Source: Solwaraspora sp. WMMD792
GTDB taxonomy: Bacteria > Actinomycetota > Actinomycetes > Mycobacteriales > Micromonosporaceae
Reading direction: 5' to 3'
Assembly: GCF_029626105.1 (NCBI RefSeq)
Contig: NZ_JARUBH010000009.1
Coordinates: 3,472,001-3,536,000 of the forward strand
Length of the DNA: 64,000 bases
Part shown: one piece after another, positions 2,634 to 38,324 of the stretch
How the letters are laid out: every line of letters starts with the position of its first letter
Numbering within the stretch: position 1 is the stretch's first letter
Translations under genes and position numbers: made by a program
The notes under the pieces: generated by a model
Seen by the model: the letters and a program-made list of their open reading frames with translations, nothing else
Databases searched by the model: none
Told to the model about the DNA's origin: nothing

Positions 2634-2826
2634 AATGTCGATTGCGACAACCTCCGACACGCCCGGGATCCGGGGGAGGTTGGCGGAAAGATCCCAAAGT
2701 ACGCCTGAGCTGCGAAAACTCACCTTACGGAGATCATCTAAGCCGGCATCAAGATCATGATGATCATGAGGTTGCCCTCGGAGCCACCTGTTTGCGCAGC
2801 TCAGACCGCCCAACATTTCGGACACG
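2634..2826 (+). promoter_or_regulatory. CRISPR leader 1
   Basis: This 193-bp stretch precedes the first repeat and is conserved with the sequences before arrays 2 and 3 at exactly the same length. Shared blocks include CGACACGCCCGGGATCC, GGTTGGCGGAAAGATCCCAA, CAAGATCATGAT and ACATTTCGGACACG next to the repeat. Such conservation is expected for the promoter and Cas1-Cas2 docking site of co-acquiring arrays. Confidence 0.85.
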
Positions 2827-3230
2827 GTCTCCGGACACACGAAAACCGCACCGGATTGAAACCCGATGCAACCTCCGCCCCGCCTGTTGCCTGTCAGGGT
2901 CTCCGGACACACGAAAACCGCACCGGATTGAAACCCGATGCAACCTCCGCCCCGCCTGTTGCCTGTCAGGGTCTCCGGACACACGAAAACCGCACCGGAT
3001 TGAAACGTCAGCAACCCCAGTAGGCTGCGCCGCAGCCATTGGAGTCTCCGGACACACGAAAACCGCACCGGATTGAAACTTGAACCGCCCAACCACCATT
3101 CTGCTGACCTGTGTCTCGGTCTCCGGACACACGAAAACCGCACCGGATTGAAACGCGCATCAGACATCCCTGAGTTTTGCACTCAGCGGATGTAGTCTCC
3201 GGACACACGAAAACCGCACCGGATTGAAAC
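2827..3230 (+). CRISPR. CRISPR array 1: six 36-bp repeats, five spacers
   Basis: Repeats start at 2827, 2899, 2971, 3044, 3119 and 3195. All are identical, beginning GTCTCCGGACACACG and ending CACCGGATTGAAAC. Spacers are 36, 36, 37, 39 and 40 bp. The first two spacers (2863-2898 and 2935-2970) are identical. The ATTGAAAC end matches the 5' handle that Cas6 leaves on type I/III crRNAs. Only a weak 5-bp stem (TCCGG/CCGGA) is possible, as usual for type III repeats. The leader is on the left, so the array is transcribed rightward. Confidence 0.97.
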
Positions 3231-3283
3231 CGGCCCCAAAACGTCAGGGATGGGTAGACCCGAGCCGATTTCGGGGCTGAGTG

Positions 3284-8093: not shown

Positions 8094-8286
8094 AATGCCC
8101 ATTGCGACAACCCCCGACACGCCCGGGATCCCGGGTAGGTTGGCGGAAAGATCCCAAAGTGAACCTGAGCTGCAAAAACATGCCCCATGGAGATCACTTG
8201 AGGCTCCCCCAAGATCATGATCAACAAGAGGTTGCCCCCGGAGCACCATGTTTGCCCAGCTCAGACCGCCCGACATTTCGGACACG
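8094..8286 (+). promoter_or_regulatory. CRISPR leader 2
   Basis: A 193-bp leader with the same conserved blocks and the same length as leaders 1 and 3. It ends ACATTTCGGACACG against the first repeat. The divergent RT-cas operon starts 81 bp to its left, so the intervening segment should carry the adaptation promoter. Confidence 0.85.
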
Positions 8287-8608
8287 GTCCCCGGACACAC
8301 GAAAACCGCACCGGATTGAAACCTGAACCCCGCGGGGCAGGTTGATCTTCTTGATCGTCCCCGGACACACGAAAACCGCACCGGATTGAAACTCATGTCC
8401 ATGGTGGGGTCTGCCCGGGGGGGCTCAGTCCCCGGACACACGAAAACCGCACCGGATTGAAACTGGGGGAGCTCCCTCTCGAGCAGGTGCCGTTCCGCTA
8501 GTCCCCGGACACACGAAAACCGCACCGGATTGAAACGGGTTGGGAGGAGGCCCTTCAGCCTTCTTCCCTCCAGTCCCCGGACACACGAAAAACGCGCCCG
8601 TATTTGGG
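8287..8608 (+). CRISPR. CRISPR array 2: four intact repeats plus a degenerate end repeat
   Basis: Repeats start at 8287, 8357, 8428 and 8501 (GTCCCCGGACACACG...CACCGGATTGAAAC). A fifth at 8573-8608 keeps the first ~19 bases but is degenerate in its 3' half, marking the leader-distal end. Spacers are 34, 35, 37 and 36 bp. The repeat differs from array 1 by one base (position 4, C for T). Confidence 0.96.
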
Positions 8609-8650
8609 CAGGCAAGAATGCCCGTCGGGGTGTCCGCGAGTGGCGTACCA

Positions 8651-8774: not shown

Positions 8775-9872
8775 TCAGGTGTCGTGGTGGCGGGACTCGT
8801 TGCGTGGGCCTGGCTCGCCGGGTGACGAATATCGGGATGGCTGGGTGTTCGGGCTCGGTGATGCTCCGGCAGCGTCGTGCGCCGCTGGAGGCGCGGTCGT
8901 CCGGGCCACGGACGGTGGGCCGGCGGCGTCGCTGAGCCCGCGTGGCGAGTCCGGCCCGCAGGCCAGGCACTCCGGGTCGCGGTCGGCGTCCAGCACCGTC
9001 GTTTCGTTCGCCGTCGCGTCCATCAGCAGATACCGCACCGGTGGCCGCCACGGTGAGACATAGTTCAGCAGCTCGCCGACGGCGTACCCGGCGATGATCT
9101 GGTTGAGGAAAACCACGCTGGGCGTCGGCTCGGCCGGATCGTCGACCCGGTAGCCGGCCGCCCGGCGAGCAGCTGCCAACCCCGGGTCAAGCTCGGCGTC
9201 CACCAGCCGCGGGTCGTAGCCGGACAGGCAGAGCAGGCACGGGCCACCGGGGCGGACCACCGCCAGATGCCCGCCGGCTTCCAGCCGTACCCGGGAATTG
9301 GCTTCTTGGTTGTGGTCGTCGGGCGGCTCCGGCCGGGGTGCCGGTCCCAGCTCGACCCCGACGTCGAGATAGCAGCGGGCGTACTGCACGGCCAGCCGGT
9401 TCAACGCCCAGCGTGGCGCGTGCCCGTCGACCGCGCCGAGGATCACCTCGGCCGGGCGCACCTGCTGCCAGACGACCGGGTCGAGGATGCTGCCGGCGAT
9501 GCCGCGTACCCGTACCTGCGGGTTGATGGTCCGGACCGTGCGGGACGCGACAGTGACCTTGGTCGCCGCCCGCGCCACGTCGGCCGGCTTGGCGCCGACC
9601 AGACGGTTCAGGTTGGTGGCGGTGACCGTGTCCGGGTCGACCAGCAGCAGCCCACCCACGCCCAGGTGGGCCAGTGACTGGACGACCTGGCTGCCGACGC
9701 CGCCGAGGCCGACCACGGCGACGGTCAGCTCGGCGAGCCGACGCTGCGTGTGCGGACCGAACGCCCGGACCTGCCGGTCGTAGCGGTCCGCCGGGGTCGG
9801 CCCGTTGGAATCGGCCTGCGGGTCCGGCCCACGGGCCGGTGTGGTCAGGGTCGGCGTGGTCAGAATCGGCAC
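8775..9872 (-). CDS. E1-like ThiF-family adenylyltransferase (365 aa)
   Basis: The GTG start at 9872 overlaps the end of the JAB gene by 13 bp. The ThiF/MoeB/E1 fold is clear: YDRQVRAFG, the nucleotide loop VAVVGLGGVGSQ (residues 51-62), LLLVDPDTVTATNLNR with the conserved Asp, Asn and Arg, then K105 and D149. Two CxxC pairs (PCLLC and ECLAC) likely bind structural zinc as in ThiF and MoeB. Such enzymes adenylate the C-terminus of a ubiquitin-like protein. The operon with a Ubl-E2 fusion and a JAB peptidase makes it the E1 of a bacterial Ub-like conjugation system. The last ~60 residues are Pro/Ser-rich and probably flexible. Confidence 0.9.
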   Translation of the reverse strand: MPILTTPTLTTPARGPDPQADSNGPTPADRYDRQVRAFGPHTQRRLAELTVAVVGLGGVGSQVVQSLAHLGVGGLLLVDPDTVTATNLNRLVGAKPADVARAATKVTVASRTVRTINPQVRVRGIAGSILDPVVWQQVRPAEVILGAVDGHAPRWALNRLAVQYARCYLDVGVELGPAPRPEPPDDHNQEANSRVRLEAGGHLAVVRPGGPCLLCLSGYDPRLVDAELDPGLAAARRAAGYRVDDPAEPTPSVVFLNQIIAGYAVGELLNYVSPWRPPVRYLLMDATANETTVLDADRDPECLACGPDSPRGLSDAAGPPSVARTTAPPAAHDAAGASPSPNTQPSRYSSPGEPGPRNESRHHDT

Positions 9873-10393
9873 AGTTTCACCTCGGTCAGGTCGTCGTCGC
9901 CGAGCAGCACCAACCGGTCGAGCATCCGCAGCGTCCCGTCGTCCGGGTCGGTGTACGCGCCGGCCACCGACGCCTGCCCGAGCACCAGCGACGCCACCCC
10001 GACCGGCGGCGCGGCCGGCATCCGGTCGAGGAACTCGGTGTGCGTCTGGCGCATGTTCTCCACGTCGAGGCCGGAGAATCTGACCGTGTCGTCGGCGAAC
10101 GGGTGGCTGTGCACGTCGACCAGGGACAGACCGGTCTCGAAGCAGGCGATCAGCACCTCCCGGGTCAGCCAGGCGGCGACTTCGATCCGTACGCCGTTCT
10201 GCACCGACAGCGCGTCGTCCGGGATCGGGATGGCCCGGGTGACCAGCAGGTCGGTGACGGCCCCGGTGCCCCACGGGTCGGTCCACCGGCCGGCGCGGGC
10301 CAGCAGGTAGGCGCCGCGTTCGTCGTCGCTGTCGCGCAGATGCCGCCGTACGGTGTCCCAGGTGTCGTGGCTGATCCGCAGCACGCAGGTCAT
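9860..10393 (-). CDS. JAB/JAMM metallopeptidase of a ubiquitin-like system (177 aa)
   Basis: A JAMM zinc-peptidase signature is present: E25 (DDERGAYLLA), H95 and H97 (VDVHSHPF), S107 and D110 (FSGLD). The spacing from HxH to SxxD is slightly longer than the classical motif. The ATG at 10393 shares a base with the E2 stop, and the 3' end overlaps the E1 start, so the three genes are coupled. JAB enzymes cut after ubiquitin-like domains to mature precursors or remove conjugates. In this operon the natural substrate would be the Ubl of the preceding Ubl-E2 protein or its conjugates; that is inference. Confidence 0.88.
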   Translation of the reverse strand: MTCVLRISHDTWDTVRRHLRDSDDERGAYLLARAGRWTDPWGTGAVTDLLVTRAIPIPDDALSVQNGVRIEVAAWLTREVLIACFETGLSLVDVHSHPFADDTVRFSGLDVENMRQTHTEFLDRMPAAPPVGVASLVLGQASVAGAYTDPDDGTLRMLDRLVLLGDDDLTEVKLCRF

Positions 10394-11010
10394 CAGTCGA
10401 CCGTGCCGAGGTAGGTGCGGATCGCCTCGACGTAGCTGACCAGCGAGTCGAAGCGCGGATCCCAGTTGCGTTCGGGGTCTTCCAGGCAGTACCAGCGGTA
10501 GCCCAGCTCGGCGTAACGGTTCTTGTAGGCCGAGAAGTAGTGGGCGGGTTGCACGAGCGTGCGGCCGTCGCGGCGGCGCAGGTGGTCGCCGAGGAAGAAG
10601 CCGTCCGGGGCGGTCTCCGGGTAGGTGGCCGGCGGCACGATCAGCACGGTGGTGCGGTCCGGCTCCCAGTGTGGCGGCAGCCGGAACTCGGGGATGTGCA
10701 GCCAGGACTCGTCGTCGGCGACGGTCAGCCCCGGGTACGCGTACGCGAGCTGGGCGGCTTCGTGGCGGATGCGCAGCCGCCTCGGGTCGAGCGTGTTCAT
10801 CGCCTTGGAGTGCCGGGCGTGGTGGGTGAACTGCTGCTGATCGGCGACGCGGATCCGCTGGTCGTCGGGGACGATGACGTTGCGGTCGTCGTCCTGGCGG
10901 ACCAGGACCCGCTCCTGCGGCAGGCCGGCCGCCCGCTTGATGTCGCGGCCGGACAGCATGTCGTCGATCACCGGTACGTCGACCCCGTTGATCCTGATCG
11001 TCTTGCCCAT
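10393..11010 (-). CDS. Ubiquitin-like domain fused to an E2-like domain (205 aa)
   Basis: Residues 1-67 look like a beta-grasp ubiquitin-like domain of the multi-ubiquitin type (KTIRINGVDVPVIDDML, then RDIKRAAGLPQERVLVRQ). Residues ~75-205 resemble the prokaryotic E2 family E domain: LIVPPATYPETAPDGFFLG, an RWYCLEDPERNW block, then a C-terminal helix (LVSYVEAIRTYLG). Cys175 is the only cysteine and is the candidate thioester site. No di-glycine end follows the Ubl, so it cannot be conjugated through a free C-terminus unless cleaved. It is first in the operon with JAB and E1. Such cassettes are known from comparative genomics and have been tied to antiviral conjugation. Confidence 0.8.
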   Translation of the reverse strand: MGKTIRINGVDVPVIDDMLSGRDIKRAAGLPQERVLVRQDDDRNVIVPDDQRIRVADQQQFTHHARHSKAMNTLDPRRLRIRHEAAQLAYAYPGLTVADDESWLHIPEFRLPPHWEPDRTTVLIVPPATYPETAPDGFFLGDHLRRRDGRTLVQPAHYFSAYKNRYAELGYRWYCLEDPERNWDPRFDSLVSYVEAIRTYLGTVD

Positions 11011-14931: not shown

Positions 14932-16524
14932 TCACCGGCGGGCACGGCGGGCGACGACGGCACCGCTCACCACCAGCACCAGCAGATTGAAGGCGAACGT
15001 GCCGACGTACGCCTGCCGGGCGGCCACGGCGGTCACCGCGCGGGCCTCGGCCTCGACCGCCGTGCGTGTCGTCGGCGGCGCGTCGGGGCAGCTGACGCGG
15101 GTGCCGGCGGTGAAGTCGGTCAAGCCCTCGTCGGCGCAGGCGGCGACGGCCGGCCGCGTGGCACCCTCGCCGTCGCCGTCGGCGGGCAGCGCCTGATCCA
15201 GGCTGGCCTGCGCCAACGCCGCGAAGATGATGGTGACGATCACGACGCTCAGCGACTGGGCGACCAGTTGCACGGTGGTGAACACGGCTGACGCCGTCGA
15301 GGCGATCTCTCGGCGGACGTTGCGCAGCAGCATCTCGTACAGCGGCGTGGTGACCAGAGCCTGGCCGGTGCCGAGCAGCAGCACCGGCAGGATGAGGGCG
15401 GCCAGCGTGATCTGTTCCCCGGTGGTGTGCACGACGGTGGCGAGTCCGGCGAGCGCGACGGCCATCACACCGCAGCCGAGGACGATCGTCCAATCGCCGA
15501 GGCGGCGTTTGATCGGGTTGATGAACTGCGAGGTCAGCACGAAGGTGACGCCGAACGGCAGCAGGCTCAGGCTGGCCTGCAACGCGGTGAATCCTGCGAC
15601 AACCTGCAGATACAGCGTGGTGAGCAGGAAGAATCCGGGCGGGCCGAGGAAGAACACCACGATGACGGTCAGGCCCAGCCGGAAGGTGCGGTCGCGGAAC
15701 AGGTCCGGCGAGAGGACCGGATCGTCGCCGCGGCGCAGGACGCGCCGTTCCACGGCCACGAAGACCACGGTGGCCACCGCGGAGAGGGCGAACCCGGCGA
15801 TGCTCCAGGCCGGCCAGCCGGCCTGACGGCCGAGAATCAGCGGGACGATGAGCAGGCCGAGAAGCACGGCCAGGGTCGCCATGCCGAGCAGGTCCGGCCG
15901 TGGGGCGGCGGGGCGGCGTGACTCGGTGAGCGTCAGCGCGGCGCCGGTGAGGGCGACGGCGGCGAGCGGCACGTTGATCAGGAAGATCGCGCGCCAGCCG
16001 AGCCCGGCGATGTCGGCGCTGAGCAGGAGGCCACCGAGCACGATGCCGCTGACCCAGGCCATTCCCATGGAGACGCCGAAGACGGCGAATGCGCGTTCCC
16101 GGGCCTGGCCGGCGAACATCGCGTGCAGCGAGCCGATCGCCTGTGGCATCAGCAGCGCGGCCGCCGCTCCCTGGACGACCCGGGCGCCGATGAGCACCCA
16201 GGCGTCGGTGGCGGTGCCGCACAGCAGGGACGCGACGGCGAAGCCGGTGACGCCGATCATGAAGATGCGTTTGCGGCCGTACAGGTCGCCGAGCCGGCCG
16301 CCGGTGATGACCGCGACGGCGTAGGCGGCGCCGTAGCTGACCGCGATCAGCTGCACCTGCGACAGGGTCGCGCCGAGGTCGGCCTGCACGCTCGGGATCG
16401 CGACGTTGACGATGAAGAAGTCCACCTGGGCCACGAATGTGCCGGTCAGCAGCACGGCGAGGCCCAGCCAGGCGCGTGTCGATGTCTGCTGCTGGGCGGT
16501 CGACCCGGTCTCTGCGGTGGTCAC
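14932..16524 (-). CDS. MFS drug/metabolite exporter, DHA2 family (530 aa)
   Basis: About 14 membrane helices are visible. Family motifs are QVDFFIVNVAIPSVQADLG near the start, GGRLGDLYGRKR between helices 2 and 3, and LIGARVVQGAAAALLMPQAIG. This is the 14-helix DHA2 proton-antiporter family that exports antibiotics. An extracellular loop near the C-terminus carries two Cys and a cluster of Ala/Asp. Its ATG overlaps the NRPS stop (ATGA), so it belongs to the methyltransferase-NRPS-exporter operon and most likely exports the NRPS product or gives self-resistance. A terminator-like repeat follows downstream. Confidence 0.92.
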   Translation of the reverse strand: MTTAETGSTAQQQTSTRAWLGLAVLLTGTFVAQVDFFIVNVAIPSVQADLGATLSQVQLIAVSYGAAYAVAVITGGRLGDLYGRKRIFMIGVTGFAVASLLCGTATDAWVLIGARVVQGAAAALLMPQAIGSLHAMFAGQARERAFAVFGVSMGMAWVSGIVLGGLLLSADIAGLGWRAIFLINVPLAAVALTGAALTLTESRRPAAPRPDLLGMATLAVLLGLLIVPLILGRQAGWPAWSIAGFALSAVATVVFVAVERRVLRRGDDPVLSPDLFRDRTFRLGLTVIVVFFLGPPGFFLLTTLYLQVVAGFTALQASLSLLPFGVTFVLTSQFINPIKRRLGDWTIVLGCGVMAVALAGLATVVHTTGEQITLAALILPVLLLGTGQALVTTPLYEMLLRNVRREIASTASAVFTTVQLVAQSLSVVIVTIIFAALAQASLDQALPADGDGEGATRPAVAACADEGLTDFTAGTRVSCPDAPPTTRTAVEAEARAVTAVAARQAYVGTFAFNLLVLVVSGAVVARRARR

Positions 16525-19500
16525 GGAGCTGGCTCCTCCTCGATGTTCAGCAGTTGGGCGACGCGGCGCAGCGCAGCGTCGCCGACCATGTCGAAGTGGT
16601 CGCCGGGGATCTCAACCACTTCGACGTCCCGTCCGGTGAGTTGCTGCCATGCCCGGACCTGCGCGCGTCGTACGTCCGGGGCACGGTCGGTGGCGGTGAC
16701 CAGCAGCAGCGGCAGGTCGGCGGGTTCCGGCCGGTACGCCTGGCCGAGCCGGACGTGGGCGCGGAACGTGTCGTAGGTGGCCCGCAGCTCCTGCTCGGCG
16801 ACCTCCGCATCGATCCATCCGAGACGTCGGGCGGCGCTCACCAGCTCGGGCCAGCTGCCCGGCGGTTCACCGGTGTCGACCGCGCCGGCCCGGCGGCGTA
16901 GCTGCAGCGTGAACTCCCGCAGCATGGCCTCCTCGTCGGTGATCACGTCGCCGGTCAGCGGCTCGGCGTCGAGCAGCACGACCCGCCGCACCGGCGTGCC
17001 GGCCGCGACGGACTGTCGCGCCATCTCGTAAGCCAGCAGCCCGCCGAACGACCAGCCCAGCAGGTCGACGGGGCCGAGCACGCCTGCGGTGCGCAGTTCG
17101 TCGAGGTACGCGGCCGCCATCTCGGTCAGCGACCGGTGCCCGCCCGGCGGCACGGGGTCGGCCTGCACGCCCCAGACCGGCTGGTCCGGCCCGCAGAAGC
17201 CGGTCAGCGGCGCGTACGGCAGTACCGTGCCGTCCGAGGTGTGTACGCAGATCAGCGGCGTACGACCGTCGCCGGCCTGCAGCTGGATCAGATGCCGACG
17301 GGTGTCCTGCTCGGCGGTGAGCGCCCGGGCGATGTCGCGGACGGTCGGGGCCTGGAAGAGCAGCGGCAGCCGGATGTGGTGGCCGGTCTCGCGGCGGATC
17401 ACCGACGCCAGACGCATGGCGTTGAGCGAGTGGCCGCCGTGTTCGAAGAACGAGTCGGTGACGCCGATCTGCTCGGTGCCCAGCACCCGTCGCCACAGCG
17501 GCAGCAGCTCAGCTTCCAGTGGCGTGGCCGGCTCGGTGACGGTGTGGGCGGGTCCGTCGTCCGCCTGCGCCCGCAGCCGCCGGCGGTCGACCTTGCCGTT
17601 GTGGGTCAACGGCAGGCTGTCCAGCACGGTGGTCACGCTGGGCACCATGTAGCCGGGCAGGGTGCGGCGCAGGTGCTCGCCGACCGTGCTGGCGGACCCG
17701 ACGGCGCCGGTGACGAAGGCAGTCAGCCGGCGGCCGGTGCCGGTGCCGGTGACGACCACGGCCGCGTCGGCGACTGCGGGGATCTGCCGCAGTGCCGCCT
17801 CGATCTCGCCGAGTTCGATGCGGAATCCACGGATCTTGACCTGGTCGTCGACCCGGCCGACGAAGTCGATCTGCCCGTCGGCGCGCTGGCGTACGCGGTC
17901 ACCGGTCCGGTAGAGCCGCCCGCCGGGTGGGCCGAACGGGTCGGGCAGGAAACGGTCGCGGGTCAGCTCGTCCTGGTTCAGGTAGCCGCGGGCGACCTGT
18001 ACTCCGCCGACGTAGAGCTCGCCCTCGACGCCGGGCGGCACCGGCCGGTGCCGGTCGTCCAATATGTACGCGGTGGTGCCCGGCACCGGTCGCCCGATCG
18101 GCGGCTGCCGGTCGTACGGGTCGTCCGGCTGCACGACGGCGACCGTCGACAGGATCGTGTTCTCCGTCGGGCCGTACCCGTTGATCAGTGTGAAGCCGCA
18201 CCCGCCCAGCGCGGGCTGCCGATGCAGCCGGTCCCCGCCGGTGATGACGGTCCGCAGGGCCAGGCCGTCGGGCACCGGCTCGGCCAGCATCGTCTCGACC
18301 AGCGGGGTGACCAGGAAGCTCACGGTCGCGGCGATGTCCCGCAGCCAGTTCCACATGCCGGCCGGGTCGGTCAGGACAGCGGCGGGGGCGAAGTGCAGCG
18401 TCGCGCCGGCGGCGAGGCACGGCCACAGCTCCATCACGCAGGCGTCGAAGCCGGCGTTGACTGTCTGCGTGCACTGGTCCTGCGGCCCGAGTCCGTACGC
18501 CTCGGTGAACCAGGCCACGAAGTTGTCGAGCGCGGCGTGCTCGACCAGCACGCCCTTCGGCTGCCCGGTCGAGCCGGACGTGTAGATGACGTAGGCCAAG
18601 TCGGCCGGCTCAATGTCCCGCTTTCGGGCCGGCGCCTCCGGTCCCCCGGGTGACTGCGGTCCGTCGATGACCAGGGTGGCGACGTCGTCCGGTACCAGGT
18701 CGGCCGTGGCCGTGGTGACCAGCGCAGCGGCGGCGCCGCTGTCGCGGAGCATGAACCGGATGCGCTCCGCCGGGGTGCCGGCGTCGATCGGCAGGTACGC
18801 CGCGCCGGTCTTTATCACCGCCAGGCAGGCGGCCACGAACATCGGGGTGCGACCGGTCAGCACGGCGACGATCGTCTCCGCGCCGATGCCCTGCTCGATG
18901 AGTTGGCCGGCCCAACGGTCGGACAGCGCGTCGAGGTCGGCGTAGGTGAGCGTCGTGTCGTCGTCGCGGGCGGCGACGGAGTCCGGGCGCTCCTGGGCGT
19001 GCCGGCGTACGGCTGCTTCGACGGGCAGTGGGCGTCGCGGCTGCGCCGGGCCGGCGCCGGCGCGTAGCAGCTCGGCGGTCTGGGCGTCGTCGAGCAGCTG
19101 GTAGTCGCCGAGCGGCCGGCCGGCGTCGCGCACGACCTGGCGCAGCAGCCGTACGAAGTGCCGGGCCATGCCCTGGACCTGGTCCTCGTCCCACAGGTCC
19201 GCGTCGTACTCCCACCAGCCGCCGAGCGCCTCGTCGGCGGTGATCAGGCTGACCGTGAGGTCGTACTTCGCGGTACGCCACTGCACGTCCAGGCGTTCGG
19301 CCTGCACCCCGGCGAGCCGGAGCTGCTGTGCCTCCGGCGGCTCCGAGGTGAACAGCACCTGCACCAGCGGCGAGTATCCGGGATCGCGTGGCACGCCGAG
19401 CTCCCGGACGATGTCCTCGAACGACATCCGGTGGTGCTCGAACGCCTCCAGGCAGGTTTCCCGTACGGTGGCGAGGAAGTCGGCGAACGTGGGGTCACCG

Positions 19501-22500
19501 GCGAGCCGGGTGTAGAGCGGCAGGTTGCCGGTGAACATGCCGACGACCTGGCTGCCTCTGTCCTCGTCCTCGGGGCGTTGCACGAAGGCGGTGCCCACGC
19601 CGATCCCCGGCGAGTCGGCGCTGTTGACGTAGCGCAGCAGCAACGTCTTGAAGACCGCCAGCAGGACGATGAACCGCGTCGCGCCGTGGCGGCGGGCGAA
19701 CTCGCCGACCCGCTGCCACTCCGGGCCGTCGAACGACACCGGCACCCGGCGGCCGCGGTACGCCTTGCGGGCCGGCCGGGGCCGTTCGGTGGGCAGCGGC
19801 AGCAGCGCCGGCGCGCCGTCGAGCGTGTGGCGCCAGTAGGCCACGTCCGCCGGGTCGGGGCCGGGTCCGGCCGGGTCCGGCAGCACGTCGATGAAGTGTG
19901 CCGGCGGTGCCGGGGTGGGCGCGCGGGCGGCCAGGACTCCGGCGTACTCGGCGGAGATGTCGCGCAGCACGGCGGCCAGCGACGACCCGTCGACCATCGC
20001 GTGGTGCACGAGCAGCCCGAACGCCCACTCGCCAGGGCCGAGCCCGATGAGCACCGCGCGCAGCACCAGCCCGGTTTCGAGGTCGAGGGTCTGCGCGGCG
20101 AACTCCTCCAGCGCGGCCCGCAGGCCGTCGGGTCCGGCAGTGGCCGGCAGCCGCCGCTGGGTGAACGACGCCGCCACGTCGGTGCGCACCCGCTGCGTCG
20201 GCGTGCCGTCCACATCGGTCACGGCGGTACGCAGCGCCTCGTGCCGGTCGACGACGCGCTGCACGGCGGCGCGCAGCATGGCCGGGTCGAGGTCACCGGC
20301 GAGTCGCCACGCCTTGCAGATGTTGTAGAGCGTACGCACACCGCTGATCTGTTCGTGGAGGTAGATGCCGCGCTGGTGGGTGCTCAGCGGCGCGGTCCGC
20401 GACTCGGCGGGCCGGTCCTCACGCCGGTACCCCAGGGCACGGGCCAGTGCCGTCGTGGCCGGTGACAGCGTCGCGGGGTCGAACGCGTGCCGCCAGCGCT
20501 CGGCGGCGGTGGCGTCGACGCCGCGGTCCGGGTCGAACGTCGGGTCGCCGTGCATGCGCGACTGCGGGTGCAAACCGCTGGTCATCCGGCCGTCGGCGCC
20601 GACGGCCGGGTCCAGCATGGCCGGTTCGAGGGGTACGCCGAGGAAGCCGGCGAGCCGGGTCAGCACCTCCTGCGGGTCGGCGACGAGGTCCTCGTAGCGG
20701 ATGAGGATGCGGCGGTCGGCCGGCACGTCGGCGAGTGCGGCGGTGACGTTGTCGTTGGCGGTCAGCCAGGTCAGCTCGGCCAGCTCACGCGGGGTGAACG
20801 CGTGTGGGTGGCGGAACACCTGCTCCATCCGGGCCCGCAGGAACGAGTCGATCATGCCGCCCGGATGCCGGACGAGGTGGATGTAGTACGGCTGGTCGAA
20901 GAGCGTCTCGGCGCGGCGGATCGCTGCGGCGTCCACGGCGTAGGTGGAGGTCTTGTCGACCAGCAGCCTGCCCCGCGCGCTGGACTGCAGGTAGTCGTAG
21001 GTGTCCCGGACCGGCCGGTCGGCCAGCTCGGCGAGGCGTTCGGCCGCCTGGGCGGCGGTGCCGCCGTCGAGGTCCATGGCGGCGCGTAGCAGACCCTCCG
21101 TGGCGTACCGGTGGCTGCCGCCGAGCGCGGCCGCGCGCTGGGCCATCGTGTCGAAACCGAGCAGCTCCAGCTCCGGCGGGGCGAAGAGCCGGCTGCTGCC
21201 GGCCAACAGCACGCGCAGCAGGGTGGACCCGGACCGTGGGGCGGACAGGATGAAGGCCGCGCGGGGCAGCTTCGGACCGGCGGCCGGCGCCGGCTCGACG
21301 CCGGTGACGATGGCGCGGAACCGTCGCAGATCGGCACCGGTGATCGCCGTGTCGGGGCGGCGGCTGGCGGTGGTCTGCGGCGCGCCGGTGAGGTGGGTCG
21401 CCAACGCCGGGTACTGCGTGGCCAGGTAGGTGCAGAAGGCGCGCAGGGTCGGAGCGTCGAACAGGGCGCGGACGTAGAGCACGTCGCCGGCGGGGTTCAT
21501 CCGCTGGAGGCGGTTGATCAGCTCGCCCGCGCGCAGGGACGAGCCGCCGATGCCGAAGAAGTCGTCGTCCACGTCGACCGTGTCGACGGCCAGCACGTCG
21601 GCCCAGATCGCGGCCATCGCGGTGCGCAGAGCCTCGCCGTGGGGGCGCGCATCGGATCGCGCGGCGAGGTGCGCCGCCGACCTCTCGGCCTCCGTCGAGG
21701 GCCGCCCTTGCGCCGGGGACGCGGTGACTGGGGGTTCCGCCTGCGCCGGGGACGCGGTGGTCAGCGGCGTACGGCGCAGTGCCGGACGGTCGATCTTGCC
21801 GTTGGGCAGCAGCGGCAGGCTTGCGCTGAGGGTCAGGCGGGACGGCACCAGGTACGGCGGCAGGACCCGCGCCAGCCGAACCCGGATGTCGGCGACCGTG
21901 ACGGTGTCGTCGGCGGGCACGACCCAGGCGGCCAGCTCCTTCGCGCCGTCCGGCCCGGCCACGGCGGCGACCACCGCGCGTTCGACGCCGGACAGCCCGG
22001 CGAGCGCCGCCTCCACCTCCCCGGGCTCCACCCGGAATCCAGCGATCTTGATCTGCTGGTCGTCCCGGCCGAGGATTTCCAGTCGGCCGTCCGGCAGCCG
22101 GCGGGCCAGGTCACCGGTTCGGTAGAGCCGGCGGCCGGCCGCGTCGACGGGAAACCGCTCCGCGGTCAGTTCGGGGCGGTTCCAGTACCCGCGGGCGAGC
22201 CCGGCGCCGCCGATGCACAGCTCGCCGACCCAGCCGACCGGGACCGGCCGGAGGTGGGCGTCGGTGACGTAGACGCTCTGGTTCGGCAGCGGGCGGCCGA
22301 TCGTCGGGCGGTCGGCGTCCTGGATCCCGATACGCGCCGCCGTCGACCAGACCGTCGTTTCTGTCGGTCCGTACATGTTCCACACCGCACGCGACCGTGC
22401 CACCAGCCGACGGGCCAGCGCCGGCGGCATGGGCTCGCCGCCGCAGAGCGCGATCAGCGGCGGCAGGTCGGGGGTCGCGGCCAGCAGCATCTGCCAGGTC

Positions 22501-23738
22501 GTCGGGGTGGCCTGCATGACGCCGGCCCCGCTGCGGCGCAGCAGCTGCCCGAGCCGGGCGCCATCGCGCACGTCGTCCGGTCCGGCGATGACCACCCGTC
22601 CGCCGGTCAGCAGAGGCGCCAGCAGTTCGAGCGTGGCGATGTCGAAGGACAGCGAGGTCACCGACAGCAGCGCGTCGGCCGGGCCGAGGCCGATCAGGTC
22701 CGCGGCCCCGTACAGCAGGTTGAGCAGCGCCGAGTGCGGCACGTCGACGCCCTTCGGCGTGCCCGTCGACCCGGAGGTGTAGATCAGGTACGCGGTGCCG
22801 CCCGGGGCGGCGTCGCACTCGTGGCCCGCCGCCGGGTCGCGGTCCGGTTCGCGGTCCGGTTCGCTGTGCAGCAGATCGTGGTGGAGAGGCAGCAGCACCC
22901 GGCCGGCGTGCAGCCCGGCGGGCGGGGTGGCGGCCTCGGCGTCGGTGAGCACGATCATGGCGCCGCTGTCGGTGAGCATGAACTCCAGGCGCCGGTGGGG
23001 GTAGGCGGGGTCGAGGGGCAGCCAGGCCGCGCCGGCCCTCCAGACCGCCAACATGGCCACCACCTGCAGCATCCCGCGTTGCAGGTGTACGCCGACGATG
23101 TCGCCGGGTCCCGCGCCGGTACGGCGCAGCCGGGCCGCGAGCCGGTGGGCGGCGGCGTCGAGCTGCCGGTAGGTCAGCGTCTCGTCGCCGCAGATCAGCG
23201 CGACGGAGGCCGGTGTGCGCCGCGCCTGCGCCGCGATCAGGTGCGACGCCGTGGTACCGCTCGGGTACGGGCGCGCCGTGTCGTTCCACCTGTCCTCGAT
23301 GAGCGCGCGTTCGTCGTCGTCGAGCAGGCTCAGCGAGTCGATCGGGGCGTCGGGGCTCGTCGCGCAGCCGCGCATCAGCACCGGCAGCCGCCCCAGCCAG
23401 CCCGGCACCGGCCCGCTCGTGCCGGCGGTGGCGTACAGCAGGTCGCCGTCGTCATGCACCTCGACGACGATCGGCACCGCGTCGTCGTCGGCGGCGATGC
23501 GCGTGCCGCGCTGTGCCAGCAGCGCCCGCGGCGAGGGCGCGCCGGTCAACCGGTAGCGGTGCTGATGGGTCAGGCCACCGGTGATGACGGTCGCCTCGAC
23601 CGTGGTCGTCTCGGTGCCCTGCTCGGTGCGGACCGCGATGGCGGCGACGGCGCCGAGCACGCATTCGACGGGGCAGCCGGTGTGGTGGCTGAGGCCGGCC
23701 GTTGCGGCGATGTCGGTGCGTGGGACGGCGACGCTCAT
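16521..23738 (-). CDS. Two-module NRPS with internal sulfotransferase domain (2405 aa)
   Basis: The ATG at 23738 overlaps the methyltransferase stop (ATGA). Approximate order by residue: degenerate condensation-like N-terminus 1-150; A1 160-650 ([19 protein letters not shown]); T1 with GIGGSSL near 729-735; sulfotransferase 825-1100 ([17 protein letters not shown] phosphosulfate loop; [12 protein letters not shown]); C 1116-1560 with HHAMVDG at 1245-1251; A2 ~1590-2080 ([11 protein letters not shown]); T2 with EHGGHSL; thioesterase with GWSFGG, DAEP and GDHFDMV. By eye the A1 pocket reads D-I-L-Q-L-G-M-V-W-K, close to the known glycine code. A2 reads D-A-M-L-I-G-G-I-L-K, which I cannot assign. 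A PAPS-dependent sulfotransferase between T1 and C should act on the first tethered building block. The product is probably a small modified dipeptide-like molecule. All core motifs are intact. Confidence 0.93.
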
Positions 23739-24700
23739 CCGCGCTCGACCTGGGCCGGCACGGTGTTGGTGGCTCGCCACTGCTCACCGGTACGCGCCAC
23801 GATGGTGTCGCCGGTCGAGACCGCCAGCGGCGCCGCCAGGGGGCTGTACGTCTCGGTGGTCCAGACCGGCTGTCCGTCGTAGAGCAGCTCCTGCGTCCAC
23901 AGCAGGCCCGACACCCGCCCTGGTACCGCTGCCCGCAGTCGCGTCTCGCCGGGGAAGCCGATGAACGACGGTGCCGAGTAGTCGATCATGTGGAAGGTGT
24001 CGGTCTCGCTGAGCAGCCGCACGTGACGTCGGTCGAAGCGGACCGATGCCATCGAGGTGGGTGGCCGCCAGGCCGTCGCGGCCGGGTCGGTGGGCCGGCT
24101 CCGCTTGATCGGCAGCTCCTGCTTGGTGCGGTCGATCAACGGCTGGTAGTCCAACCCGTACACGCTGCGGAGCACGTCAGCGGAGGCGTCCAGGTCGGCC
24201 CGCTCGGTGAACAGGTCCCAGTCCAGCCGCTCGCACGCGGCGACGCTGTAGCGCACCGCTCCCGGCACGATGCGGCACTCGGGCACGCAGAAGCGGTCCC
24301 GCAGCTCGAACACCATGCGGGAGCGGGCCTCGTCGATCAACGGATGGTTGGTGTAGATGAAGGCCAGCAGCAGGTCGAACCGAGCCTCGAGGACGGCCGG
24401 CGGCAGGTCCAGGTCCATCAGGTCTGCCTGCAGGAAGGTCATCCGATCGGCCAGGCCGTTCTTCTCCGCCACCGCCTGGGCCAACTCCAGGTGCTGGCGG
24501 TCGACGCCCACCGCGCTGACCGCCCCGGCCCGCAGGGCGACGAACGACAGCAGGCCACTGCCGGTTCCGGCATCGAGGACACGGTCGCCGGGGCGGGTGG
24601 CCGCCCGCACCGCGCGCTGCACGTTGTGACCACGGTCGAGACTCAGCAGCAGGCGCAGGTGCAGATCGGTGGTGAACGGTACGTCGACAAGGCGGCTCAT
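23735..24700 (-). CDS. SAM-dependent methyltransferase, PRMT-like (321 aa)
   Basis: Motif I of class I methyltransferases is clear (RVLDAGTGSGLLSFVALRAG), followed by the acidic SAM ligand (AVGVDRQHLELA) and post-motif regions (MTFLQADLMDLDLPP). The two-part layout, a Rossmann domain then a ~150-residue beta-rich domain (RFDRRHVRLLSETDTFHMID and later), resembles protein-arginine methyltransferases and their small-molecule relatives in natural-product clusters. It is first in the operon and overlaps the NRPS start, so it probably methylates the NRPS product or a precursor. The divergent SARP gene starts 195 bp away. The substrate is unknown. Confidence 0.85.
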   Translation of the reverse strand: MSRLVDVPFTTDLHLRLLLSLDRGHNVQRAVRAATRPGDRVLDAGTGSGLLSFVALRAGAVSAVGVDRQHLELAQAVAEKNGLADRMTFLQADLMDLDLPPAVLEARFDLLLAFIYTNHPLIDEARSRMVFELRDRFCVPECRIVPGAVRYSVAACERLDWDLFTERADLDASADVLRSVYGLDYQPLIDRTKQELPIKRSRPTDPAATAWRPPTSMASVRFDRRHVRLLSETDTFHMIDYSAPSFIGFPGETRLRAAVPGRVSGLLWTQELLYDGQPVWTTETYSPLAAPLAVSTGDTIVARTGEQWRATNTVPAQVERG

Positions 24701-24894: not shown

Positions 24895-27801
24895 GTGGAG
24901 TACCGGATCCTTGGCGCGCTTCAGGTATGCGCCGATCAGGGAGACGTACCGGTGGGTGGGCCGCGGTCGCAGCGACTACTGGCCGCGATGCTGCTCAACG
25001 CCAACCGCCCGGTATCGGTTGACGCGCTGATCGCGGCCGCCTGGGACGGCGATCCACCGAGGACGGCCCGCCGGCAGGTCCTCAACCGTATCGCCGGCCT
25101 CCGGGCCACGCTCACCCGCGCCGGGGGCGCCGTCGACACCCGCACCGCTGGCTACCTGCTGCGGGTCGCGCCGGAGCAGGTCGACGCCCTCGCGTTCGAC
25201 AGCCTCGTCCGGCAGGCCGCCACGGCACCCGACGACGCGAGGTCCGTCTCGATGTACCGGCAGGCGCTCGCACTGTGGCGAGGTCCCGCGCTCGCCGGTC
25301 TACGGGGCGGGTTCCTCGAAGCGGAGGCGGCCGGACTCGACGAGCGGCGCCTTTGCGTACACGCCGACTGCATCGAGCGCGAACTGGCCCGTGGCGAGGC
25401 CGACCGGCTCGTCCCGGAGCTGCGCCGGCTGGTCGCCGAGCACCCGTTCCGGGAGCGGTTCGCCGGGCTGCTGATCACCACCCTGACTCACGCCGGCCGG
25501 CGGGCCGAGGCCCTGGATGCCTACCGGGAGCTTCGCGAACGCCTCGTCTCCGAGCTCGGCTTCGAGCCGAGCGCGGCCCTGCAGGCGCTGCACCAGGCCG
25601 CCCTGCGGGACGCGCCGGCGTCGACCGCCGCCGCGTCACAGCCAGCACCACGACAGCAGCCGCGCGACGTGCCCACCTTCACCGGCCGCCACCAGGAGCT
25701 CGCCACGATACGGCGGCTGTTCGGCACCGGCACCACCGGACCCGTGGCGGTGGTCGCGGTGCAAGGAGTGGGCGGCATCGGCAAGTCGGCTCTGGCCGTA
25801 CACGCCGCCCACCGGTTCGCCGACCGGTTCCCCGACGGTGTCCTCTACGCCGATCTACGCGGCGCTACCGCCGGTCTCGCCCCGGTGAGCCCACTCGACG
25901 CCCTGCACCGGTTCCTGCGGGCGCTCGACGCCGCACCGGTCCGCCTGCCGATGGACGTCGACGAGGCTGCGGCGATGTTCCGCTCGGCAGTCGCCGACCT
26001 GTGCCTGCTTGTCGTGCTCGACAACGCACGCGACGCCGCCCAGGTCGCGCCCCTGCTACCCGGCGGCGGCGGATGCGGCGTGATCGTGACCAGCCGCCGG
26101 ATGCTGAGCACTCTCGACGGTGCACACCACATCCAGCTGGAACCCCTCACCGAGCAGGAGGGCCTAGCCCAGCTGACCGGGACCGTCGGGAACGAGCGCA
26201 TCGCCGCCGATCCGCAGGCCGCGCGTGAGCTGGTCCGTTGGTGTGGCCGGTTCCCGCTGGCGCTGCGGATCGCGGGCGCGCGACTGGCGGCCCACTCCGG
26301 GTGGACGGTGCGGGACTTCGCCGCGCGGCTCGCCGACGAGCAGCGCCGCCTCGACGAACTTGAGGTGGCCGACCTCAGCGTCCGCGCGAGCATCGCCCTG
26401 TCCCACCGGAAGCTGCGCGGCAGTGCCGACCCCATCGACCGGGACGCCGCGACCGCGATCGCGACCCTCAGCATCTGGGACGGGCCGGACGTCAGCGACC
26501 TGTTCGCCGCCCGGCTGATGGACCGGCCCCCGACCGCGGCCGCCCGGGCGTTGGAACGGCTCGTCGCCGCGAGCCTGCTCGACAGCGAGGTGCCCGGCCG
26601 CTACCACCACCACGACCTCATCCGCCTGTACGGCCGTGAGCAGGCCACCATCTCCTTGCGTGGCGCGGAGCGGGCCGCCGCACTCACCCGGGCCATCGGT
26701 TGGTACGTCGGTACGGTCTGGGGGACGTACCCCCTGCTGCGCCCCGGCGACCGCCGCCCGCAGACCGTGGGAGACCAGTGGACAGGCGACGCCACCGCGT
26801 TCCCGGACCCCGACTCGGCGCTGCGCTGGCTCGACGACGAGCGCAGCAACCACCTGGTGGCGCTGCACCAGGCCGCGGCGAATCCGGCTGTACCGGCCAG
26901 CCTGGTCGTCCAGCTCGGTCAGGGCCTGTATGCCTTCCACCGGGTTCGCAACTCCTGGGGCGACGTGTCGGCCATCAACAGCCTGGTGCTCGAGGTGGCC
27001 GCCCGCAGCGACGACAATTCCGCACTGGCCGTCGCCCACACCGACATGGGCGCGGCACTGTGCCAGCTGGAACGGTTCGACGAGGCCGCCGAACACCTGC
27101 GTACCGCGATCGCCCGGCACCGCGCCATCGGCGACCGGCACGGCCATGCCCAGGCGCTGGCGCTGATGGGCAACGTCCACCAGGCCGAGGGACGCAGCCA
27201 GGAGGCGCTGATGTGCTACCAGGCGTGTCTGGCCGTCAACGAGGAGCTGGGTGACCTGCGCGGCCAGGCCATGAACCTGGGCAACCTGGGCCTGGTGTGG
27301 CGTCTGCTCGGCCGTTACGACGAGGCTCAGCGCGCCCACGAGCGGGGCATGGCACTCTTCCGGGAGCTCGGCGACCGTTACGGGCAGGCCATCGGGCTCA
27401 CCAACCTGGCCAGCCTCTACCGGGACACCGAGCGCTACGACGCGGCGGTCACCGTCCTGCAGGAATGTCTGGAGACGTACCGCAGCGTCGGCGATCGCTT
27501 CGGCCAGGCCAAGGTCCACCTGGAGCGGGGCATGGTGCGCCGGCTCCAGCAGCGCTACCAGGAGGCGCTGGCCGACCAACGCACCGCAGCCGCTGCCCTG
27601 CGTGAACTGGGCCGGCGGCAGAGCCTGGCTGAAAGCCTCCGCGAATCCGGCCTGATCCTGCACCTGCTCGGCCAGTTCTCGGCTGCCCGGCACGACTGGC
27701 AGGAGGCGCTGGGCCTGTTCCTGAGCCTCGGGATACGGTCCGAGGCCGCCCAGGTTCGGCGGCTGCTCGCACCACTTGACGCGACGACCCGCCCAGCTTG
27801 A
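24895..27801 (+). CDS. SARP-family pathway regulator with NB-ARC and TPR domains (968 aa)
   Basis: The GTG start (GTGGAGTACCGG) gives the expected SARP opening MEYRILGALQV. An OmpR-type DNA-binding domain (1-95, with QRLLAAMLLNANRPVSVDAL) precedes a bacterial transcriptional activator domain (about 96-245, ending RELRERLVSELGFEPSAAL). An NB-ARC ATPase follows with P-loop GVGGIGKSALA (about residue 290) and a Walker B-like LCLLVVLDNARD. The C-terminal third holds TPR repeats (ALALMGNVHQAEGRSQEAL and similar, about 700-960). This is the AfsR-type large SARP. Its position opposite the methyltransferase-NRPS-MFS operon identifies it as the likely cluster activator. Confidence 0.93.
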   Translation: MEYRILGALQVCADQGDVPVGGPRSQRLLAAMLLNANRPVSVDALIAAAWDGDPPRTARRQVLNRIAGLRATLTRAGGAVDTRTAGYLLRVAPEQVDALAFDSLVRQAATAPDDARSVSMYRQALALWRGPALAGLRGGFLEAEAAGLDERRLCVHADCIERELARGEADRLVPELRRLVAEHPFRERFAGLLITTLTHAGRRAEALDAYRELRERLVSELGFEPSAALQALHQAALRDAPASTAAASQPAPRQQPRDVPTFTGRHQELATIRRLFGTGTTGPVAVVAVQGVGGIGKSALAVHAAHRFADRFPDGVLYADLRGATAGLAPVSPLDALHRFLRALDAAPVRLPMDVDEAAAMFRSAVADLCLLVVLDNARDAAQVAPLLPGGGGCGVIVTSRRMLSTLDGAHHIQLEPLTEQEGLAQLTGTVGNERIAADPQAARELVRWCGRFPLALRIAGARLAAHSGWTVRDFAARLADEQRRLDELEVADLSVRASIALSHRKLRGSADPIDRDAATAIATLSIWDGPDVSDLFAARLMDRPPTAAARALERLVAASLLDSEVPGRYHHHDLIRLYGREQATISLRGAERAAALTRAIGWYVGTVWGTYPLLRPGDRRPQTVGDQWTGDATAFPDPDSALRWLDDERSNHLVALHQAAANPAVPASLVVQLGQGLYAFHRVRNSWGDVSAINSLVLEVAARSDDNSALAVAHTDMGAALCQLERFDEAAEHLRTAIARHRAIGDRHGHAQALALMGNVHQAEGRSQEALMCYQACLAVNEELGDLRGQAMNLGNLGLVWRLLGRYDEAQRAHERGMALFRELGDRYGQAIGLTNLASLYRDTERYDAAVTVLQECLETYRSVGDRFGQAKVHLERGMVRRLQQRYQEALADQRTAAAALRELGRRQSLAESLRESGLILHLLGQFSAARHDWQEALGLFLSLGIRSEAAQVRRLLAPLDATTRPA

Positions 27802-37496: not shown

Positions 37497-38324
37497 ATGC
37501 CCACCCAGATCGTCGTCTCCCTGGTGCCGACCGCCGCCACGGCGGTCCCGCCACCGCACACCGGCCCGGCCGTCTACGCCGCGTTCCTCAAAGCGGTCCG
37601 CGCCGTCGACCCGGAGCTGTCCACGATGCTGCACGACAGTGCCCGGTACAAGCCGTTCACCCTCAGCCCGGTCCTCGACGAGCAGGGCCGGCCACCGTCG
37701 ACACCGGGGCAGCCGGCCCGGATCGTGGTCGGCCTGCTGATCGACGCGTACGCCGCCCCGGTGCTCGCCGCGCTGCACCACGCCGCCGGGCATCAGATCG
37801 CGCAGACCCGTTACCGCACCGTCGACGTCGCCGTGCACGCCGTGTCGTACGCCGAGCTGGCCACCGGCGCCGACCCGGCCGCCACCACCTGGGCGTACGA
37901 CCTGCTGACCCCGGTCGGGTTCGCCACCGGACGCGGGGACGGTGCCCGCCGCCAGCGCCCCTGGCCGGACGCGGAGCGGGTGTTCACCAACCTGACCCGG
38001 CGCTGGGACGCGTTCGCCGGGGAGGTGGCGTTGCCGACGTCGGCGGAGCCGGCGGTCGTCGACCATCTGGAGGTGGTCGACGCTCAACTGCGGATGGCCA
38101 CGCACCTGGTGGAGCCGGGGCAGCGTAACCCGGAGCACCGGTTCCGTCGGGGCACGGTCGGCTCGGTGACCTTCCAGTTGGCGGAGGCATCGGGGGTGCC
38201 CGGCGACGCGCGACGCGCGGTCGACGCCCTGGCGGCGTTCGCCAGCTACGCCGGTTTCGGGGACCGGACCGCGATGGGCATGGGTCACGTCCGGCGCAGG
38301 CTCAGCCCGCCACCGCAGCAGTGA
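37497..38324 (+). CDS. cas6: CRISPR pre-crRNA endoribonuclease Cas6 (275 aa)
   Basis: The start at 37497 gives a two-ferredoxin-fold RAMP protein. Its C-terminal part has the Cas6 pattern: EHRFRRGTVGSVTFQLAEA, then AFASYAGFGDRTAMGMGHVR, the latter being the Gly-rich loop that contacts repeat RNA. The N-terminal part (IVVSLVPTAATAVPPPHTGP, AVYAAFLKAVRAVDPELSTM) matches the first RAMP fold with its HDS(x)nKPFTLSP region. Length is typical. Cas6 cuts repeats to leave an 8-nt handle; the arrays' ATTGAAAC end fits. It is a single-gene transcript 23.6 kb from the nearest array and shares no operon with other cas genes. Its link to these arrays is inferred. Confidence 0.9.
   Translation: MPTQIVVSLVPTAATAVPPPHTGPAVYAAFLKAVRAVDPELSTMLHDSARYKPFTLSPVLDEQGRPPSTPGQPARIVVGLLIDAYAAPVLAALHHAAGHQIAQTRYRTVDVAVHAVSYAELATGADPAATTWAYDLLTPVGFATGRGDGARRQRPWPDAERVFTNLTRRWDAFAGEVALPTSAEPAVVDHLEVVDAQLRMATHLVEPGQRNPEHRFRRGTVGSVTFQLAEASGVPGDARRAVDALAAFASYAGFGDRTAMGMGHVRRRLSPPPQQ

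Follow-up and report, generated by a model that had tools for sequence, protein, structure and literature searches.

Planktothrix cyanopeptolin synthetases contain a sulfotransferase (ST) and a glycerate-loading domain (PMC2533009), the ST of DysB serves the sulfated glyceric acid of dysinosin (PMC6520454), and in varlaxin biosynthesis the ST of AerB is part of the loading module, as far as the accessible portions of these sources go. From such cyanobacterial glycerate-loading modules, an ST located between the first carrier (T) and the first condensation (C) domain was already known. Four cyanobacterial loci in our collection (L078-L081) show the order T-ST-C followed by an adenylation (A) domain, and FkbH was found before the carrier in both loci tested with NCBIfam (L079 and L080). 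In sulfazecin biosynthesis, SulN acts in trans and carries out PAPS-dependent N-sulfonation of a carrier-bound amine (PMC11298585, accessible sections); within the literature searched, as far as its text was accessible, sulfazecin is the only documented case of assembly-line N-sulfonation. For mined beta-lactam clusters, a figure legend in the accessible part of the same paper includes the entry 'S: sulfotransferase domain'; should that domain be fused to a non-ribosomal peptide synthetase (NRPS), the figure may already depict an N-sulfotransferase of the in-line type. An NRPS with an amino-acid-loading T-ST was not found in our literature search, which had most subscription journals outside its coverage.

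The stretch of DNA analyzed here (the window, 64,000 nt) contains a single minus-strand open frame that begins at 23780 and ends at 16521. The ATG at 23738 overlaps the stop codon of the upstream methyltransferase gene in ATGA, which argues that 16521..23738 are the right coordinates of the NRPS gene; residue numbers below are counted from the GTG at 23780 and are 14 higher than counts from this ATG. Pfam detected two AMP-binding, two PP-binding, one Sulfotransfer_3 (E 2.9e-25), one Condensation and one Thioesterase domain on this frame. The order A-T-ST-C-A-T-TE, which the initial annotation had proposed for 16521..23738, is borne out by the Pfam order, the motifs and the ATG at 23738, and the ST domain lies where it had been placed, at residues 825-1100 if counted from that ATG. 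The architecture is thus confirmed as real, with the checked core motifs intact, and it is not a product of chance, since two solved in-line STs are homologues of the ST and the seven domains recur in identical order at a Spongiactinospora locus. The features of the locus are given below in the order of transcription of the NRPS strand; L015 and L028 are related loci in Spongiactinospora sp. TRM90649 and Glycomyces artemisiae, respectively.

24895..27801, plus strand: SARP/BTAD-TPR regulator, divergent
23735..24700, minus strand: PRMT/PrmA-like SAM methyltransferase (MT), stop overlaps the NRPS start; family match, homologues in L015 and L028
16521..23738, minus strand: NRPS gene, A-T-ST-C-A-T-TE; Pfam, domain order, motifs, start codon overlap
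23235..23738, minus strand: N-terminal stretch (168 residues before A1), by eye resembling the end of a condensation domain, without HHxxxDG
21774..23234, minus strand: A1, code DILQLGMVW, read as glycine; Pfam, code mapping, published glycine signatures
21381..21590, minus strand: T1 carrier, GGSS site; Pfam, motif
20451..21266, minus strand: ST, predicted CurM/OLS-type PAPS sulfotransferase domain; Pfam, PDB homology, alignment of 60 STs
21222..21239, minus strand: PRSGST motif, which we take to be the PAPS 5'-phosphosulfate loop
19056..20405, minus strand: C domain, HHAMVDG intact; Pfam, motif
17571..19010, minus strand: A2, code DAMFIGGIL, presumably aliphatic and Val-like at low confidence; code mapping
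17301..17525, minus strand: T2 carrier, GGHS site; Pfam, motif
16545..17270, minus strand: TE, GWSFGG, serine type; Pfam, motif
14932..16524, minus strand: MFS exporter (DHA2/EmrB-like, below the cut-off of that model), start overlaps the NRPS stop

Both A domains keep YTSGSTG, YRTGD and NGK, and the sites of the two carriers, the C domain motif, GWSFGG and GDHF of the TE and PRSGST of the ST are all intact, the latter within APRSGSTLL at residues 847-855. The 168 N-terminal residues matched no Pfam or NCBIfam family and, by BLAST, were not significantly similar to the C domain of the same protein; their sole BLAST link is to the same stretch of the L015 protein (38% identity, E 2e-25). Elsewhere in the window, two CRISPR-like arrays (2823-3262 and 8283-8611) with a nearly identical 36-base repeat flank a group of Cas1, reverse transcriptase and Cas2 genes, and Cas6 is encoded at 37497-38324 on the plus strand, about 29 kb from that group. 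A ThiF-type E1 adjoins a prokaryotic E2 family E protein at 8775-11010 (minus strand), and an RHS-repeat protein of 3590 residues with laminin-G and pretoxin HINT domains is encoded at 48971-59743 (minus strand).

Database comparison aligned the ST over most of the domain length with two solved structures, PDB 4gox, the polyketide synthase ST of the Synechococcus olefin synthase (E 3.6e-64), and PDB 4gbm, the CurM ST (E 1.1e-58). By homology, the domain is assigned as a carrier-linked PAPS sulfotransferase of the curacin/olefin-synthase type. Across 60 aligned ST domains (that of the window and 59 others), R849, G851, E870, K943, R971, S979, E1030 and D1079 are invariant, and S850 is kept in 57. 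R971 and S979 are presumably the Arg/Ser pair that binds the 3'-phosphate, as PRSGST would be the 5'-phosphosulfate loop. The initial annotation had named loss of the PAPS-binding residues and a non-sulfotransferase fold as findings that would speak against its reading; the motif residues, whose roles are those known for the family, are kept throughout the alignment, and at the sequence level the fold question is answered by the homology to 4gox and 4gbm. Homology and the position directly after T1 likewise support its placement of a PAPS-type ST in line for a carrier-bound first unit. We infer that the ST is active. That it is a relic, or serves as a linker only, has no direct support and is scarcely credible: the residues common to the 60 STs are kept at an identity of 36-54% to 34 relatives, and L015 preserves the whole arrangement, L028 the A-T-ST part.

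The substrate of A1 was read by alignment-based code mapping, which gave DILQLGMVW. For an A domain coded DILQLGVI, glycine was the predicted substrate, which fits the structure of nocamycin (PMC5466765), and DILQLGMIWK is given for glycine (PMC12283262), both according to the accessible parts of these papers. By comparison with these signatures, the A1 code reads as a glycine code. As a control, EntF, which is annotated as serine-activating, was mapped by the same method to DVWHFSLVD, which we take to be the serine code. The A2 code is DAMFIGGIL, in which position 278 is ambiguous (the alignment gives F, inspection by eye L); we assume an aliphatic, Val-like substrate at low confidence. Within the literature and loci searched, the pairing of glycine with T-ST is the new element of this locus. 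For 32 of the STs, an A domain lies close upstream within the same frame; the codes are Ser/Thr in eight, DAEH/DAEN in seven, glycine in five and Tyr/Phe-like in four, and the eight others were left unread; the label Ser rests on the EntF control and Gly on the published signatures, while Thr, Tyr/Phe and aliphatic are labels that we assume. The DAEH/DAEN code resembles a published Arg pattern, as far as the accessible source shows.

The genes around the NRPS add to this picture. The MT shares 60% identity with the neighboring MT in L015 and 51% with that in L028, and adjoins the NRPS in all three actinobacterial loci; an MFS homologue also adjoins the NRPS of L015. HTH-ATPase/TPR regulators beside L015 and L028 match the regulator of the window in part, without a BTAD match. 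No oxygenase or other hydroxyl-making enzyme was detected among the scanned neighbors (those of the window and L028, and six L015 frames), several of which are frames without a family match. In L028, a polysaccharide monooxygenase is encoded beyond the regulator, next to a cellulose-binding protein, and is not seen as an operon member. The host genome has an APS kinase gene, so that PAPS is presumably made in the host; a further sulfotransferase match, at G000:C9:6719957-6721101, lies close to the APS kinase and away from the NRPS operon. When the MT was used as a marker, one of 396 genomes of the phylum was positive, which was the host itself. A second MT copy in the host, at G000:C9:5339386-5340327, is located beside a FAD-binding protein, and no NRPS domain was found within the 33 kb examined around it.

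These neighbors bear on O-sulfation, in which a hydroxyl would be sulfated like those of the cyanopeptolin or varlaxin loading modules, either because A1 loads a hydroxyl-bearing unit or because glycine is first converted in trans. The relatives with known chemistry act on hydroxyls according to the accessible sources, and twelve of the 32 upstream codes quoted above are of the Ser/Thr or Tyr/Phe-like kind. However, the codes in the window, L015, L028 and L022 are all those for glycine, and neither FkbH nor an oxygenase was found in the operon, and we regard O-sulfation as fairly unlikely.

What can be read from the sequence is the domain order, the intact motifs, the homology of the ST, a glycine code in A1 and the overlapping MT, NRPS and MFS genes. 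On this basis we propose, at somewhat less than an even chance, that the glycine loaded by A1 is N-sulfonated by the ST on T1, leading to an N-sulfo-glycyl dipeptide. A1 would load glycine onto T1, and the ST would use PAPS to sulfonate the T1-bound unit. Sulfonation would take place at the glycine amine, yielding N-sulfoglycyl-S-T1, a sulfamate; the amine is favored as the acceptor because glycine lacks a hydroxyl and the scan of the neighbors revealed no oxygenase. The C domain would then take N-sulfoglycyl as the donor and couple it to the T2-bound second amino acid, which is probably aliphatic, and the TE would release the N-sulfo-glycyl dipeptide. The MT may add a methyl group somewhere on the product, and the MFS pump may export it. 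N-sulfonation is backed by sulfazecin, in which a carrier-bound amine is sulfonated in trans by the PAPS enzyme SulN (accessible sections). Against it stands that the relatives of known chemistry that we found all act on hydroxyls, according to the accessible sources, that L022, a member of the same clade, has an internal glycine module, and that the MT also exists as the second host copy described above, around which no NRPS domain was found in 33 kb. The ST itself carries no residue that would mark an amine acceptor, since the invariant residues are unchanged and the clade-specific positions number only five, all weak. Of the outcomes that the initial annotation had listed, a sulfamate peptide fits best, while sulfation of a hydroxyl and activation for elimination are weakened by the glycine code of A1.

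Phylogenetic analysis placed the STs of the window, L015, L028 and L022 in one clade with a support of 99/98 in a carefully built tree, which covered the 32 STs preceded by an A domain and omitted the 28 of the 60 without a linked upstream A. A quick tree of all 60 STs gave this clade a support of 94. All four members have the glycine code; the placement of a fifth glycine-coded ST, L023, is unsure and not securely within the clade. The match between clade and code is no proof of ST specificity, since A and ST share descent when they are part of one protein. L015 has the seven domains in the order of the window, with 42-56% identity per domain, and shares with it the MT and MFS neighbors and the glycine code of A1; its A2 code is DVMFVAGVL, compared with DAMFIGGIL in the window. 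The A-T-ST gene of L028 stops after its ST; the MT precedes it, and a DNA glycosylase gene follows on the opposite strand. Because of this early end, MT and A(Gly)-T-ST form the core common to the three actinobacteria.

In the fourth member, L022, A(Gly)-T-ST is preceded by a C domain, and another A-T module lies upstream. Since the C domain and this module should leave the glycine amine acylated, the acceptor in L022 must be elsewhere in the chain. An ST whose acceptor is the second residue or the dipeptide, instead of the T1-bound unit, would be compatible with such an internal glycine, and the ST of the window, being beside the C domain, might reach T2. This reading is nevertheless quite unlikely, as a carrier immediately precedes the ST in 58 of the 60 collected STs (the exceptions are L039 and L062), the Glycomyces A-T-ST protein ends with the ST, and A2, judged by its code, appears to load an aliphatic residue that has no hydroxyl.

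The distribution of T-ST was investigated by a scan of species genomes with two short peptide patterns, in which 31 of 225 candidates were confirmed; as it relies on these two patterns, the scan is not a census. In 27 of the 31 loci, the frame that encodes T-ST also encodes A or C domains, and a C domain directly follows the ST in 19. Within the collection of 60, the ST is followed by C in 29 cases, by an alkene-type TE in 12, by another TE in six, by A in one and by no domain in 12, some of which perhaps reflect the end of the stretch. The supposition of the initial annotation that an internal ST would set this line apart from known ones is therefore not supported: AerB, DysB and the Planktothrix cyanopeptolin synthetases have theirs in loading modules, and the order ST-C is frequent in our set. 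The taxa on the records include Actinobacteria, Acidobacteria, Cyanobacteria, Proteobacteria, Bacteroidetes, Planctomycetes, Verrucomicrobia, Chloroflexi, Calditrichota and Cloacimonetes, among others; many of the records come from metagenome bins.

In genomes near the window the ST is rare. A T-ST-C query (E 1e-25) was positive in two of 354 genomes of the family (the host and G163), and the ST query (E 1e-30) in one of 394 genomes of the class (the host), in two of 345 in the order of Spongiactinospora and in 16 of 292 cyanobacteria. A laxer search of 61 relatives (E 1e-12) gave seven positive genomes, with matches besides the host NRPS of 36-38% identity in frames of 290-547 residues. A plasmid search with the T-ST-C query returned 77 records, none covering 80% of the query. 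On an Agrobacterium vitis plasmid (L011, 10309-13956), A-T-ST-TE is encoded beside ectB, with a methyltransferase, cysN and cysD near; the proximity of cysN and cysD makes the use of PAPS plausible there, and these genes are perhaps a separate sulfated small-molecule cluster.

The alkene-type STs allow a further reading to be weighed, a curacin-like activation for elimination or ring closure, in which sulfate would serve as a leaving group and be lost from the product. Such chemistry is carried out on beta-hydroxyacyl carriers by the closest solved relatives, according to the accessible sources, and lines of the type Thr-ST-C-A(Gly)-T-TE exist. However, glycine has no beta carbon, the TE of the window is a plain serine TE, and in the tree of 60 STs all 12 alkene-type STs fall into one clade of 13, that is, with one other row, apart from the window. 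Since the downstream domain differs and a beta carbon is missing, we consider elimination very unlikely. Lines with A(Thr)-T-ST-C-A(Gly-type)-T-TE were observed in L020, L021, L024, L025 and L026, with a Ser-coded counterpart in L045, all in unrelated bacteria. A PKS gene (KS-AT-KR-carrier) lies just upstream in L024, and the upstream frames of L021 and L045 look alike by eye. A curacin/OLS-like KS-AT-KR-T-ST-TE was also seen in G1397, in the order of Spongiactinospora (L073, 8033-14890).

Returning to N-sulfonation of the glycyl carrier, the broader proposal is that a fused in-line N-sulfotransferase makes N-sulfo (sulfamate) peptides and that T-ST is a tailoring cassette which, judging by record titles, occurs in at least ten phyla, with clades that track a glycine, Ser/Thr or Arg-like code; we regard this as possible, if rather doubtful. 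If true, a fused N-sulfonating domain would be a portable tool for sulfamate peptides, and the occurrence of T-ST in NRPSs across many phyla would point to clusters with products that may be heavier by +79.957 Da. Taken together, the interpretation given in the initial annotation is partly supported.

Compared with OciA of cyanopeptolin, DysB of dysinosin and AerB of varlaxin and suomilide, the locus shares the ST family and the placement of this domain behind the first carrier and ahead of the first C domain. A methyltransferase accompanies the loading unit in DysB and AerB, according to the accessible sources, as an MT adjoins the NRPS of the window. In OciA, DysB and AerB, however, glycerate is loaded via FkbH and the product is an O-sulfate, whereas the window has a glycine-coded A domain and no FkbH. 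FkbH was not found in the window NRPS, where an A domain takes its place and the N-terminal stretch is without an NCBIfam match, and for the whole protein it was absent from the NCBIfam matches listed (25 of 107).

CurM of curacin and the Synechococcus olefin synthase have carrier-linked, PAPS-dependent STs that are homologous to that of the window. Their STs act on a beta-hydroxyacyl-ACP and are followed by a TE leading to decarboxylation, according to the accessible sources, whereas the ST of the window is followed by a C domain. The window ST thus belongs to the CurM/OLS family, yet the line is not a curacin-type alkene line, since the next domain is C instead of TEab and A1 is glycine-coded. 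A monobactam-type line was considered as well; the accessible sections of PMC11298585 give a Gln-Cys-Asn motif in the TE as the mark of the sulfazecin type, and this candidate was rejected, as the TE of the window has GWSFGG and lacks that motif. A last A domain coded for diaminopropionate (Dap) is a further trait of the sulfazecin type; the last A domain here, A2, bears DAMFIGGIL, which looks aliphatic at low confidence. The likeness to SulN and SulM of sulfazecin is the PAPS-dependent sulfonation of a carrier-bound substrate, the acceptor in sulfazecin being an amine according to the accessible text. There, the substrate of the trans-acting SulN is diaminopropionate and the beta-lactam ring is closed by a cysteine TE, whereas the window combines an ST in cis with a glycine-coded A1 and a serine TE.
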